From NCBI GenBank assembly GCA_030656075.1, contig JAUSOT010000133.1, positions 1-32,477 on the forward strand: DNA of 32,477 bases, in the 5' to 3' direction. The notes below the pieces were generated by a model, which was not told the origin of the DNA, ran no database searches, and saw only the letters and a program-made list of their open reading frames with translations. This stretch comes from Candidatus Cloacimonadales bacterium (lineage in GTDB: Bacteria > Cloacimonadota > Cloacimonadia > Cloacimonadales > TCS61). The position numbers were made by a program, and so were the translations under genes. Shown here one piece after another: positions 3,491 through 23,651 of the stretch. Numbering within the stretch: position 1 is the stretch's first letter; each line of letters begins with the position of its first letter.

Positions 3491-3660
3491 AAATTGAAGA
3501 AATTAGTTGTCTTTTTTCTGTCAAACATTTTATAAATTGTATTCGAGTCGTAAGAAGAGTAGCGACGACGACTCGAGGCTGGCACATACATTATTCGCTT
3601 CGACTCGACGCAGTCTTTCGAGTCGAAACTTACCGCCAATCACGTTACCGCTGTTCCCAA
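3491..3660. repeat. Copy 2 of dispersed imperfect repeat
   Basis: See 2235-2411. The same internal hairpins are conserved. Confidence 0.85.
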
Positions 3661-8000: not shown

Positions 8001-8190
8001 CGGACGGCAGAAGCTGGAAGAAATTCGAGAAATTCTTCGAAAATAAAACTATAAGATCCCTCAGAATGACATCTTTTGTTAGCTTTTGTTCGTTTTCGTT
8101 AGTTGCTAAAAATCCATATTTCAATTTCAGCTTGACGTTTGAGCCGCTTATTTTGAATAGATATTACTAATTATTATTATTGGAGTTAAT

Positions 8191-12914: not shown

Positions 12915-12974
12915 AATAGCCACAAAAAGCACAAAAGATAAGCCACGAAGAACACCAACGAACCACGAAGAAAA

Positions 12975-13222
12975 ATGATGTCTTTCTGAGTTCACTTTTA
13001 GCTTTACACACGAAGAATCTCCTGAAAATCTTATAAGTTTTACTTCTTTTTTGCCGCTGATTTACACAGATAAACACGGATAAAACCTTGCGAACGGTTG
13101 TAGAACTTCTTGCTTTTTTTTGACCTTCGCAACGGTTTCTAATAACAATATCGATTTTGTCTTTCTGAGGTTTCTTTTAGCTTCACCCTCGAAGAATCTT
13201 TTGGATTTTCTTGCAGCTTTTC
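12975..13222. repeat. Two imperfect direct copies of a 'TGTCTTTCTGAG...TTTTAGCTT...CGAAGAATCT' intergenic element
   Basis: 12976-13020 'atgtctttctgagttcacttttagctttacacacgaagaatct' versus 13157-13200 'ttgtctttctgaggtttcttttagcttcaccctcgaagaatct'. Confidence 0.75.
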
Positions 13223-18722: not shown

Positions 18723-19004
18723 ATGATGAAGAAAAATGAAATAATAGCATTACTGGATATGAATAAGAAGGAAATTCAGGATCGATTTCATGTTACCAAA
18801 ATAGGGTTATTTGGATCTTATGCTAACGACATGGAAAACGATGGAAGTGATATCGATATAATTGTGGATGGGAAAAAGATATTAGACGAGGAATTGAGAA
18901 TATTTTTAGAAAGTAAATTTCATAAAAAGGTAGATATCGTGAAAAGAGAAACCCTCTATCATTTTATGAAATTTTTAATTGATGAAGAAGCAATTTATGT
19001 ATAA
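18723..19004 (+). CDS. mntA: MntA-type nucleotidyltransferase antitoxin
   Basis: 'KIGLFGSYANDMENDGSDIDIIVDG', GSYx(n)SDIDI motif. Overlaps the following HepT ORF. Confidence 0.85.
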   Translation: MMKKNEIIALLDMNKKEIQDRFHVTKIGLFGSYANDMENDGSDIDIIVDGKKILDEELRIFLESKFHKKVDIVKRETLYHFMKFLIDEEAIYV

Positions 19005-19449
19005 AAAAGATACTGGTTTCCTGTTGGCAATTTTAAAAATGTGTGATGATATAGAAAGTTATAAAATTGAATATAAAGATTTGAATAAATTACTTAAAAC
19101 ACGAATCGGACAAAATGCCTGTTTAATGAATATCTCGCAAATCGGAGAATATTCCGGTAAATTAAGCCAAGAATTTACAGACGAATTTTGTGATGTTGAA
19201 TGGAAAAAAATCAAGTTTCTGAGAAATATAATAATACATGACTACCTGGGTGTTGATCTTGAGAAAATCAAAATGATCATAAAAACTAACGTTCCTGAAT
19301 TAGTGAATGATATTATGGTCATACTGAAAAAATTATTAATTTCCGGAAGAATAAACGAACAATTACTTTCAGCCAGTTCGAAAGATTTTAAGACAATTTC
19401 ATTTATTAAATTTGGAATTACTTTAAGAGGAAACAATGATCAGCAGTAA
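18997..19449 (+). CDS. hepT: HepT-like (DUF86) HEPN RNase toxin
   Basis: 'LRNIIIHDYLGVD' carries the Rx4HxY motif of HepT. ATG at 18997 sits inside the MNT stop region; the ORF track start is 18979. Confidence 0.85.
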   Translation: MYKKDTGFLLAILKMCDDIESYKIEYKDLNKLLKTRIGQNACLMNISQIGEYSGKLSQEFTDEFCDVEWKKIKFLRNIIIHDYLGVDLEKIKMIIKTNVPELVNDIMVILKKLLISGRINEQLLSASSKDFKTISFIKFGITLRGNNDQQ

Positions 19450-22204
19450 AGAAATCAGAAAGCAGTTTATAGAATTTTTTGAAAGCAAGCAGCACAAAGC
19501 TGTTCCGTCCGCTCCAGTCATACCGATCGATGATCCGACCTTGCTGTTTACGAATGCCGGTATGAACCAGTTCAAAAATATTTTTCTGGGGCAGGTGGAG
19601 CCAAAATATCCAAGGATTGTGAACACTCAAAAATGCATTCGGGCTGGCGGCAAACATAACGATCTGGACGAAGTGGGCAGAGACGGCTATCATCACACTT
19701 TCTTTGAAATGCTGGGCAATTGGAGTTTTGGAGATTACTACAAAAAAGAAGCTATCAGCTGGGCTTGGGAATTGCTGACAGGAGTTTGGAAATTTCCGAA
19801 AGAGTTGCTTTATGCAACCGTTCACACATCCGATCAAGAAGCTTATGATTTTTGGAAATCGGAAACCGATATCGATCCGGAACATATTGAATATCACGAC
19901 GATAAAGATAATTTCTGGGAAATGGGAAATACCGGACCTTGCGGTCCTTGCTCGGAAATTCACATCGATCGCGGCAGCGAATTCTGCAATTTGCAGCACG
20001 ACCCGAATCATGTTTGCAAAGTGAACGGCGATTGTCATCGCTACATCGAACTCTGGAATCTGGTTTTCATTCAGTTCAATCGGGATGAGAACGGGGAATT
20101 GCACCATCTTAAAAATAAACACGTCGATACCGGCGCCGGTTTTGAACGCATCTGCCAGATTCTGCAAAATAAAAAATCCAACTACGATACCGATCTTTTT
20201 GTTCCGATCATTGAAGAAATTGCACGTATTTCCGGAGTGAAATATTCTAAAGATGAACGCGGCACTTCCCATCGCGTCATCGCCGATCATGTTCGCGCTC
20301 TCAGTTTTGCCCTGGCTGATGGCGGCTTGCCTTCCAACGAAGGACGCGGTTATGTGCTACGCCGTATTTTGCGCCGGGCGGCCCGGCATGGTCATTTACT
20401 GGGTTTGAAAGAACCATTTCTGCATGAACTGGTAGATACTGTTATCAAGGTGATGGGAGATCACTTCCATGAATTGAAGGAAAAGCGTACTCACATCAAA
20501 ATGATCATCAAAGCTGAAGAAAAAAGATTTAATGAAACTTTGGATAATGGACTGGCACGATATACGGAGGTTTTAACAGCATCTTCTCAGAAAGCTATTC
20601 GAGTTATTAATTTATTACCAGTAGATATGAGAGAAAAAGATAAAATTTCTGACGAATTAAAAAATCTTAATTTCAAAGAATTATCTAAAATAACGACTAA
20701 TCTACTTACGAAAGGAAAAATTAATCAAACAACTATCAATGATATTACTTCAATTTCAGGATCAGACGCTTTCCAACTTTACGACACTTACGGCTTTCCA
20801 CTCGATTTGACCAAAATCATGGCGGAAGAAAAAGGCTTGAGCGTGGATGAAGCAGGCTTCCAAAAAGAAATGGAAAAACAGAAAACCAGAGCCAGGGAAG
20901 CTAATAAATTCGATATGGGAACCAGTCAAATGGAGAAACTGGGACTGAGTTCATCCGTTGTAACCAGGTTCTCCGGTTATGATAAAAACTATCTTCATAC
21001 CCGCATGATCAAGCATTTCGTCGATGATGAGCAGGGTGTTATCATCGTGCTGGAGGAAACGCCATTTTACGCTGAATCGGGCGGGCAGGTGTCGGATACT
21101 GGTGAGATTTATAATGAAAATTTCAGAGCAAAAATACATGAAGTTCAAAAAGAAAATGAAGTGTTCTTCCATTTTGGCAAGCTGCTTTCCGGAGAAATAA
21201 TATCGGATGAAGTTACGGCAAAGATCGATCCAGAAAGACGCAAAAACATTGCCCGTAATCATACCGCAACTCACCTTCTGCATAAAGCTTTGCGCGATAT
21301 TCTGGGGGATCATGTTCAGCAAAAAGGTTCCCTGGTTCATCCCGATCATCTGCGTTTCGATTTCACCCATTTTCAGCAGGTGAGCAACCTTGAACTGGAT
21401 ATGGTGGAACGTGCCGTGAATGAAAAAATCAGGGATTGCCTCAATTTGAACATCCAAATTCAACGAATCGAAGAAACCAGAAAATCGGGCGCAATGGCTT
21501 TGTTCGGTGAAAAATACGACGAAAATGTGCGGGTTGTTTCTATCGGCGATTATTCCAAAGAATTGTGTGGCGGAACGCATCTCAACTTCACCGGTGAGAT
21601 TGGATTTTTCAAAATAACCTCCGAATCTTCCATTGCAGCCGGAATCCGCCGGATTGAAGCTATCACCGGCATTCAGGCTGAGAAATACGTGAAAGTTCTG
21701 GAAGATGAAATCGATCAAATTGGCCGGCATTTAAATGCTCCGTCGGCTACCGTGCTGGAAAAGATCGAGAAAATGATCTCGGAAAATAAGAAGCTGCATG
21801 TTCAACTTAAAGCCGTTCGCGTCAAATCGGCCGGCAGCGCTTTGGATCAGATGATCGAAAGAGCAGCAGAAGTGAATGGCATTAAAGTTGTCGTTGCCAG
21901 AGTTAACGTTCCCAATCCTGGTATAATGCGGCAATTGGGCGATCAACTAAAGGATAAATTAAAATCCGGCATTGGCGTGCTTTTCGCCGAAATCGATGGG
22001 AAAGTATCTATTTTAACGATAGTAACCAAAGACTTAATCAATAAGTATCATGCTGGAAAAATTACTGGAAAAGTTGCAGAACTGGTTGGCGGCAAAGGCG
22101 GTGGCAGACCGGATATGGCAATGGCCGGCGGAAAAGATGTGGCAAAAATCCCGGAAGCAATGAAGCAGGTTGCAGAGATTGTTAAAGAATTGAAGCAGGA
22201 TTAA
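19436..22204 (+). CDS. alaS: Alanine--tRNA ligase
   Basis: 'FTNAGMNQFKNIFLGQ', 'CIRAGGKHNDLDEVGRDGYHHTFFEMLGNWSFGDYYK', 'HTATHLLHKAL', 'CGGTHLNFTGEIG', C-terminal 'GGKGGGRPDMAMAGGKD'. Confidence 0.97.
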   Translation: MISSKEIRKQFIEFFESKQHKAVPSAPVIPIDDPTLLFTNAGMNQFKNIFLGQVEPKYPRIVNTQKCIRAGGKHNDLDEVGRDGYHHTFFEMLGNWSFGDYYKKEAISWAWELLTGVWKFPKELLYATVHTSDQEAYDFWKSETDIDPEHIEYHDDKDNFWEMGNTGPCGPCSEIHIDRGSEFCNLQHDPNHVCKVNGDCHRYIELWNLVFIQFNRDENGELHHLKNKHVDTGAGFERICQILQNKKSNYDTDLFVPIIEEIARISGVKYSKDERGTSHRVIADHVRALSFALADGGLPSNEGRGYVLRRILRRAARHGHLLGLKEPFLHELVDTVIKVMGDHFHELKEKRTHIKMIIKAEEKRFNETLDNGLARYTEVLTASSQKAIRVINLLPVDMREKDKISDELKNLNFKELSKITTNLLTKGKINQTTINDITSISGSDAFQLYDTYGFPLDLTKIMAEEKGLSVDEAGFQKEMEKQKTRAREANKFDMGTSQMEKLGLSSSVVTRFSGYDKNYLHTRMIKHFVDDEQGVIIVLEETPFYAESGGQVSDTGEIYNENFRAKIHEVQKENEVFFHFGKLLSGEIISDEVTAKIDPERRKNIARNHTATHLLHKALRDILGDHVQQKGSLVHPDHLRFDFTHFQQVSNLELDMVERAVNEKIRDCLNLNIQIQRIEETRKSGAMALFGEKYDENVRVVSIGDYSKELCGGTHLNFTGEIGFFKITSESSIAAGIRRIEAITGIQAEKYVKVLEDEIDQIGRHLNAPSATVLEKIEKMISENKKLHVQLKAVRVKSAGSALDQMIERAAEVNGIKVVVARVNVPNPGIMRQLGDQLKDKLKSGIGVLFAEIDGKVSILTIVTKDLINKYHAGKITGKVAELVGGKGGGRPDMAMAGGKDVAKIPEAMKQVAEIVKELKQD

Positions 22205-22233
22205 CAGGATTAAAAAAGATTTTCAGGATGAGA
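22192..22233. repeat. Left arm of inverted repeat flanking the GxxExxY gene
   Basis: GAAGCAGGATTAACAGGATTAAAAAAGATTTTCAGGATGAGA. Matches the reverse complement of 22618-22658. Confidence 0.9.
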
Positions 22234-22237
22234 CTGA

Positions 22238-22603
22238 ATGTTCGAAGATGACAAATTGACTTATAAAATCATTGGTTGTGCCATGAAAGTTCACAACGCT
22301 TTGGGTTGCGGTTTTCAAGAGGTTATTTATCAAAGATGTCTGGCAAAAGAGTTCGAAAATGCAGGATTATCTTATGAACGAGAAAAAGAGATGGAAATTT
22401 ATTACAATAATGAAATGGTAGGTACACGAAGAATAGATTTTTTTGTAGAAGACAAAGTTATTGTCGAATTAAAAGCATTAGCAAAGCTGGATGATGTACA
22501 CTTAGTTCAAGGGAAGAATTATCTAAAAGTCTTTAACCTTGAAGTTGGCTTACTAATAAATTTTGGTTCAACGAGTTTAGAGACAAAACGTCTGTTCAAA
22601 TGA
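22238..22603 (+). CDS. GxxExxY family protein (predicted PD-(D/E)XK-like fold)
   Basis: 'VHNALGCGFQEVIYQRCLAKEFENAGLSYEREKEMEIYY...RRIDFFVEDKVIVELKAL', containing GFQEVIY (GxxExxY). Confidence 0.93.
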   Translation: MFEDDKLTYKIIGCAMKVHNALGCGFQEVIYQRCLAKEFENAGLSYEREKEMEIYYNNEMVGTRRIDFFVEDKVIVELKALAKLDDVHLVQGKNYLKVFNLEVGLLINFGSTSLETKRLFK

Positions 22604-22617
22604 AAACAAAATCCTTC

Positions 22618-22658
22618 TCTCATCCTGCAAATCCTACAAATCCTGACAATCCTGCTTC
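22618..22658. repeat. Right arm of inverted repeat flanking the GxxExxY gene
   Basis: Reverse complement GAAGCAGGATTGTCAGGATTTGTAGGATTTGCAGGATGAGA. Confidence 0.9.
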
Positions 22659-22664
22659 CGACAA

Positions 22665-23651
22665 ATGAAAATTCTCCTCATCCGGCTCAGTTCTCTCGGT
22701 GATATCGTTCTCACTCAATCAGTTGCAGCAGCTTTGCGGAAGAAGTATCCGAATGCGGAAATCCATTTCATCACCAAGAAAGCTTTTGTACCGATCGTCG
22801 AAGCTTTTGGATGCATTGATCAAATCCATGTCTGGGGAGAATACAAATCATTTTCCAAACTGAGAAAACTGGCAAAAAACAGATTTGATCTGGTGATCGA
22901 CCTGCATAATAAATTCAATACATTTCTTATCAAAAAGATCGTAAATGGCAAAAATACGGCAACTTATAACAAACATCATCATTTACGCTGGAAAATCGTG
23001 CAGCACCAAACCAACCAATCAATTTCTTCGACAGTTGAACTGTATTTTTCAGCTCTGAAAAAAGCTGGAATTGAAGCGGAAATTTCAAATCCTGAACTTT
23101 ACCCCAAAAATGAATTGAACGAAAAGTTGGCGGATTTATTTGAAACAAATAAACACAACGTTGCTATCTTTCCGGGAGCGCTGCATAAAACCAAACAATA
23201 TCCAACAGAGCAACTGGCAGAAATGATCAATTCGTTGGATGAGAAATTTAACATTTTCCTGCTGGGTTCTGCAGCGGAGAAAAATCTGATCTCTGATCTC
23301 CGGAAACTGCTGAATCGTCCAATCATCAATTTTGTAGGAAAATTGAATATTGCCGAACTGATCAGTTTTATGCAAAAAGCTGATGCAGTCATTTCCAACG
23401 ACAGCGGACCGATGCACATTGCTGCTGCTCTGCAAAAACCTCAAATCGCCATTTTCGGTGCTACAAATCCCCGTTTGGGATTCGCTCCACTCAATAAGAA
23501 AGCTATTGTCCTGATAGCAGATCTGGCTTGTCAACCCTGCTCTCTGCATGGCGGAAAAAATTGTCCGTTGACTCATTTCAATTGCATGCAGAGCATTTCA
23601 CCGCAAAAGATTAAAACCGAACTTCTAAGGATTCTTTCAGAAAAAAAATGA
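22665..23651 (+). CDS. Glycosyltransferase family 9 (heptosyltransferase-like)
   Basis: 'MKILLIRLSSLGDIVLTQSVAAALRKKYPNAEIHFITKK', 'AVISNDSGPMHIAAAL', 'IAIFGATNPRLGFAP'. Confidence 0.9.
   Translation: MKILLIRLSSLGDIVLTQSVAAALRKKYPNAEIHFITKKAFVPIVEAFGCIDQIHVWGEYKSFSKLRKLAKNRFDLVIDLHNKFNTFLIKKIVNGKNTATYNKHHHLRWKIVQHQTNQSISSTVELYFSALKKAGIEAEISNPELYPKNELNEKLADLFETNKHNVAIFPGALHKTKQYPTEQLAEMINSLDEKFNIFLLGSAAEKNLISDLRKLLNRPIINFVGKLNIAELISFMQKADAVISNDSGPMHIAAALQKPQIAIFGATNPRLGFAPLNKKAIVLIADLACQPCSLHGGKNCPLTHFNCMQSISPQKIKTELLRILSEKK

Follow-up and report, generated by a model that had tools for sequence, protein, structure and literature searches.

Between alaS and a GT9/heptosyltransferase gene, the contig of Candidatus Cloacimonadales bacterium analysed here (32,477 nucleotides, referred to as the window) carries one small GxxExxY gene enclosed by iterated inverted arms. 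This feature probably belongs, in our view, to a widespread family of minimal mobile cassettes, the arms of each being cognate to its protein. Its anatomy and generality, the clade-specific arms, the filled and empty sites and the orientation with respect to gene 3' ends were established by comparing sequences; expression without a promoter, binding and cutting, and strand transfer or repair rest on inference.

The cassette between alaS and GT9

The upstream host gene, alaS (19436-22204, + strand; TIGR00344, E=8e-289), ends in AAG CAG GAT TAA (Lys-Gln-Asp-stop) within the left iterated arm (22192-22233, +), where CAGGATT occurs at 22196 and 22205 and CAGGAT at 22224. The ATG of the GxxExxY gene (22238-22603, +) lies 4 nt past this arm. 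The right arm (22618-22658, -), an inverted copy of the left with four units of the AATCCT/ATCCTG type, is followed after 6 nt by the ATG (22665) of the downstream host gene, GT9/heptosyltransferase (22665-23651, +; PF01075, E=7e-42), and all three genes run in one direction in the window. The arms (GAAGCAGGATTAACAGGATTAAAAAAGATTTTCAGGATGAGA / GAAGCAGGATTGTCAGGATTTGTAGGATTTGCAGGATGAGA) are 81% identical across 42 aligned columns and score 42, compared to a maximum of 28 among 100 dinucleotide shuffles of their own flanks. CAGGATT is enriched in the window (17 occurrences versus 6.1 expected), and the source genome contains nine CAGGATT pairs and none of the reversed control pattern. A first-pass annotation of this DNA had described inverted arms built of CAGGATT units, the left one carrying the last codons and stop of alaS and the right one ending 6 nt ahead of the GT9 start, and each part of that description was confirmed.

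The cassette has the terminal inverted repeats expected of an insertion sequence or MITE; a known transposase domain is absent from its ORF, for which PF13366 and TIGR04256 were the sole profile matches. A scan of 21800-23000 gave no Rfam match, on which a self-splicing or other known RNA was rejected; the intergenic site likewise does not fit a homing endonuclease encoded in a group I or II intron, and the position between alaS and GT9 rules out a location inside 23S or 16S rRNA.

The encoded protein of 121 aa was assigned from profiles, homologues and an AlphaFold2 model. It matched TIGR04256 (GxxExxY) with E=6e-42 and 142.6 bits (cut-off 35) and PF13366 (PDDEXK_3) with E=8e-41 and 139.6 bits (cut-off 22). 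The model (pLDDT 97) had Cas4 SSO0001 as its best PDB match (Foldseek E=1.4e-4, query TM about 0.6), with lambda-type exonucleases next. Because E28 (22319-22321), D67 (22436-22438), E77 (22466-22468) and K79 (22472-22474) are invariant across 53 GxxExxY homologues, selection keeps an active site, though broken copies were found. On the predicted fold and the E-D-ExK residues, the protein meets the requirements for membership in the PD-(D/E)XK superfamily, and nuclease activity is inferred. It is not Cas4 proper, as its neighbours are alaS and GT9 and not CRISPR-Cas genes and no Cas4 profile matched at full length; the Cas4b profile gave a weak partial match (E=5e-4). A phage origin was rejected after tblastn against 50,697 phage records returned no match, and a search of plasmids for very recent insertions gave only 8 matches, all distant. 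In the source genome there are nine matches to GxxExxY, including two fragments at the ends of contigs, and six to S23/four-helix-bundle proteins. In open-licence PMC papers, GxxExxY, PF13366, TIGR02436 and PF05635 were only mentioned in passing.

Several other features of the window were recorded. Directly ahead of alaS, at about 18730-19449 (+), an MntA-like nucleotidyltransferase gene is followed by one for a HepT-like protein (HepT profile E=7e-7, under the cut-off), and the two are probably a type VII toxin-antitoxin pair. A 640-aa AbiA-type abortive-infection reverse transcriptase with a YVDD motif is encoded at 150-2072 (-; PADLOC AbiA/DRT, E=2e-82), and a direct repeat of ~170 nt, 83% identical, occupies 2235-2411 and 3491-3658. 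Solo iterated arms without a gene occur at about 8072-8111, 12918-12971 and 13045-13085, with the themes ACnAAC, CACGAAG and CRCnGAT.

Iterated arms at other loci and their inheritance

Scanning one genome per species yielded 80 further GxxExxY loci in many phyla, and arm statistics were computed for 132 full GxxExxY copies from more than 20 phyla, with 702 other ORFs of the same loci as control. The inverted-arm score exceeded the control 95th percentile in 104/132 copies (79% versus 5% of control ORFs) and the 99th percentile in 74/132. Several sub-threshold copies still had visible arms, and some cassettes had direct arms, outward arms or none visible. Absence of arms at other GxxExxY loci, which would have refuted the first reading of this DNA, is not what these counts show. 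In the source genome, iterated inverted arms enclose all seven GxxExxY copies whose flanks could be read on both sides, and every copy has its own unit as judged by eye: CAGGATT; GCCACAGACT/CACTGACTG; ACACAGAGG; CACTAATTGACACTAATT; CACGGATAAACACTGAT; CGCGGAT; and CACCGAAGGAA. Most loci use units other than CAGGATT, which rules it out as a universal GxxExxY signal. The proposal that CAGGATT arms mark the family was therefore right about iterated inverted arms and wrong about the unit, CAGGATT being only one of several themes, and the suggested search for the literal CAGGATTnnCAGGATT across GxxExxY loci would have failed since the unit is lineage-specific. A literature search with literal arm sequences, limited to open-licence PMC papers, gave one unrelated match.

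Arm units are mostly 9-10 nt apart. Spacings were exactly 10 for CRCnGAT in 91/124 cases and exactly 9 for AGGAT in 34/52, with a smaller class at 17-20 nt, as if one unit had been lost. Left and right arms are closer to each other within an element than same-theme arms are between elements.

To relate arms to proteins, we built a maximum-likelihood tree of the 132 GxxExxY proteins and assigned four coarse arm themes (110 labelled rows). Arm theme required 19 changes on this tree, compared to at least 50 in free shuffles and at least 37 in within-phylum shuffles, and host phylum required 43. For the cross-phylum subset (65 labelled loci, two with doubtful host labels having been taken out), theme required 15 changes, and none of 1000 within-phylum shuffles needed fewer than 16. 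A theme-free test of cross-phylum GxxExxY pairs gave a Spearman correlation of 0.18, with a permutation maximum of 0.126. Left-arm sequence was common to both members (score over 35) in 47% of cross-phylum protein pairs of more than 70% identity, and in about 0-2% of those of less than 50% identity. The TTGACAGGAT clade spans Planctomycetota, Pseudomonadota, Calditrichota and Cloacimonadota, and the GTCTGAA-leader clade spans Bacteroidota, Fibrobacterota, Cyanobacteriota, Ignavibacteriota and Peregrinibacteriota. The themes had been drawn up manually from these data, the hosts include many metagenome bins, and support for many forks of the tree is weak. One locus labelled Armatimonadota (L083) has flanks that match a Cloacimonadota locus at 76% and is likely mis-binned.

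An arm theme that tracks the protein across phyla is what horizontal movement of the protein together with its cognate ends would predict, and co-inheritance of arm unit and GxxExxY protein across phyla is well supported by these comparisons. The earlier suggestion that the arms are recognition sites of the encoded protein gains from this co-inheritance of theme and clade; binding itself remains an inference without binding data.

Genes for the four-helix-bundle protein (S23, TIGR02436) also lie between such arms, which scored above the control 95th percentile in 27/33 cases and above the 99th in 23/33, with units quite unlike those of GxxExxY. For S23, the correlation between protein and arm pairs was not significant (0.107, permutation maximum 0.188), so co-inheritance is claimed for GxxExxY only. 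In one complete genome from the same order, 2,246,820 bp long, a census found 30 iterated inverted arm pairs; several have no ORF inside, and the GGTTGAGA theme of an S23-bearing copy recurs in several, gene-less pairs among them. That two folds with no relation to each other occupy the same architecture suggests that what defines the element may be its arms plus a common pathway instead of any one enzyme. At one locus (L199), a four-helix-bundle gene lies between very long CCCTAA-type arrays that resemble telomere repeats.

Filled and empty junctions at gene 3' ends

The alaS-GT9 junction differs among relatives. The CAGGATT cassette is present in the source genome and in G101, while in G071, G075, G073 and G076 the alaS end is followed by a GxxExxY gene from a different clade, with CACTGAAAACACCGAA arms, and in G073 the alaS reading frame runs into the arm. 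A third arm sequence is found in G081, short scars made of arm pieces in G098, G094 and G095, and no arms whatever in G002, which belongs to the same genus. Since a wide distance on the tree separates the CAGGATT pair from the CACTGAA group, this junction has been occupied at least twice.

The cleanest empty/filled pair was found at the junction of the fumarate hydratase alpha and beta genes, with flanks 95-97% identical. In G072 the junction is empty and 24 nt long (GCAGTGATATAAAAGGAGAGAGCatg); in G077 it is 535 nt long and contains a GxxExxY gene between GCAACnAAC arms. AAAA stands on either side of the G077 insert, in an A-rich context, and the possible target-site duplications in general are not decisive because they are short (4-6 nt) and A-rich. 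At least twelve genomes have no arms at this junction, and three arm families occupy it elsewhere, with or without a gene. At carbamate-kinase-like 3' ends, the source genome has GxxExxY (L007), whereas G074 and G119 have S23 cassettes (L208 and L211). A single genome can hold 6-16 copies at unrelated junctions.

Three further observations concern these sites. In the source genome (contig C51), a fumarate hydratase alpha/beta junction holds a decayed GCAACnAAC cassette (L364) that has kept its arms, the gene having been replaced by another dispersed repeat. L348 and L362 each have a tandem of two gene-less elements at a single junction, separated by a repeat of the target stretch (14 nt in L348, over 20 nt in L362); this reflects either long target duplications or later duplication. 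Contig C113 of G001 is identical to G100 at the fumarate hydratase junction and is likely mis-binned.

Among 81 well-armed cassettes, the upstream ORF, called mechanically, was co-directional in 67 and divergent in 9. In 31 of the 67 co-directional cassettes the upstream stop codon lies no more than 10 nt from the outer edge of the arm, and in 47 no more than 25 nt. Co-directional placement behind a stop codon fits a promoterless cassette expressed by read-through, both of which are inferred. The 3'-end bias may reflect target choice or selection after insertion, and either remains possible. Mobility of the cassettes is well supported by the filled and empty sites, judged from sequence, without direct observation of transposition or excision. 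The first-pass annotation had proposed a mobile unit using 3'-end targets and had asked for empty alaS-GT9 sites in relatives; such a site exists in G002, and the filled and empty orthologous sites, with the coincidence of stop codon and arm, uphold that proposal.

Proposed mechanism, alternatives and known systems

In the reading we propose, each cassette is a single small gene without a promoter, set between inverted arms that comprise 2-4 units spaced 9-10 bp. Each protein lineage has its own arm unit and takes it along from phylum to phylum. Insertion would occur into a short A-rich gap at the 3' end of a gene, usually co-directionally, such that read-through from upstream could express the cassette gene and neither host gene would be broken. 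Several protomers may bind the units of an arm at intervals of about a helical turn, all on the same face of the helix, after which the two inverted arms would be drawn together and the E-D-ExK active site would cut the ends or the target, with the cassette being moved or copied. Loss or internal deletion of the gene would leave gene-less arm pairs, which perhaps are moved in trans.

An element acting at the RNA level is an unlikely alternative that cannot be dismissed. Here the arms would pair in the read-through transcript, the stem would be processed as by RNase III on 23S intervening sequences, the protein would be an RNA-associated factor, and spread would follow a retro or recombination route with host or other enzymes. 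The cassette transcript folds better than shuffles (z=-2.9) into a predicted stem that joins the arms, the arm match is stronger within than between elements, and the cassettes are co-directional with upstream transcription. The arms might thus act as a stem and not as separate binding sites, although the folding and the within-element likeness are compatible with a stem in RNA, a stem in extruded DNA, or renewal of the arms at each move. This alternative stays open mainly because S23, with a fold unrelated to that of GxxExxY, fills the same kind of cassette. S23 is the protein that 23S rRNA intervening sequences encode; in Coxiella such a sequence holds an S23p ORF within inverted repeats, which form a stem of 28 bp that RNase III cleaves (PMC4990558). 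As S23 cassettes have the same architecture without a nuclease, GxxExxY may not be the source of the chemistry. However, a stem needs neither iterated units at helical-turn spacing nor lineage-specific units, the arms are often just ~75% complementary with unpaired linkers, the GxxExxY fold is DNA-nuclease-like, and Rfam had no match within the scanned region.

Repeated occupation of the orthologous alaS-GT9 and fumarate hydratase junctions could also result from homing, in which GxxExxY would cut empty 3'-end junctions and repair from homologous flanks would copy the cassette in, and small homing endonucleases of the PD-(D/E)XK kind do exist, I-Ssp6803I being an example named in the literature. 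This is improbable, as unrelated junctions within one genome and different arm families at one junction indicate spread to new sites and not allelic spread only. A reading of the arms as ordinary repeats or regulatory signals of intergenic DNA that gather at gene ends, with GxxExxY there by chance, is very hard to sustain; arms are also found alone, but the excess over control ORFs, the theme that follows the protein, and the gene and arms that come and go together at orthologous sites all speak against it.

A mobile cassette with protein-cognate arms, the reading we prefer, can be compared to several known systems. The 23S rRNA intervening sequences with an S23p ORF in Coxiella and Leptospira are bounded by inverted repeats, sporadic and proposed to be mobile, and share with the cassette a single small ORF within terminal inverted repeats and a size of about 0.4-0.5 kb (PMC4990558); they lie inside rRNA and are excised by RNase III, whereas the window cassette is intergenic and has a nuclease-like protein and iterated clade-specific arms. 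REPIN/RAYT systems (PMC3116915, PMC6006769) likewise have a domesticable gene, cognate inverted terminal repeats and gene-less intergenic pairs in the same genome. RAYTs are transposases of the Y1 HUH type and each REP is a single short hairpin, whereas the cassette has a PD-(D/E)XK protein and arms of non-palindromic units 9-10 nt apart; lacking a Y1 HUH transposase gene, it is not a REPIN/RAYT. The cassettes resemble REPIN/RAYT and the intervening sequences in logic and belong to neither.

Terminal inverted repeats, empty and filled sites, a possible short target duplication and gene-less derivatives are shared with insertion sequences and MITEs, from which the cassettes differ in having no known transposase domain, clade-specific iterated arms and a strong preference for co-directional placement at 3' ends. 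With integron gene cassettes, the likeness is limited to a cassette-like anatomy. The window protein has the fold and E-D-ExK residues of Cas4/RecB-like nucleases and PD-(D/E)XK homing endonucleases, but is only 121 aa, stands alone in its cassette without adjacent cas genes and is not in an intron or intein. The TAACTGA heptamer repeats of Beggiatoaceae and cyanobacteria (PMC4679880) are also iterated short intergenic units, patchy across phyla; unlike the arms they are contiguous direct repeats, mostly right before start codons, unpaired around genes and without a known cognate protein. No paper describing such cassettes was found among open-licence papers. We put at about even the chance that they form an undescribed class present in more than 20 phyla, in which a stand-alone Cas4-like PD-(D/E)XK protein, or a four-helix-bundle S23/Avd-like one in sister cassettes, would recognise co-diverged iterons at helical-turn spacing, and movement to 3' ends would proceed differently from that of any known transposase.

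The very common GxxExxY and S23/four-helix-bundle proteins have so far lacked an explanation, and the link to mobile cassettes offers them a concrete role; it would also explain a large class of odd intergenic repeats. The filled and empty pairs and the dozens of natural protein-arm pairs provide material for tests of a recognition code, and a nuclease-like protein this small with a modular-looking iterated site would have practical interest.
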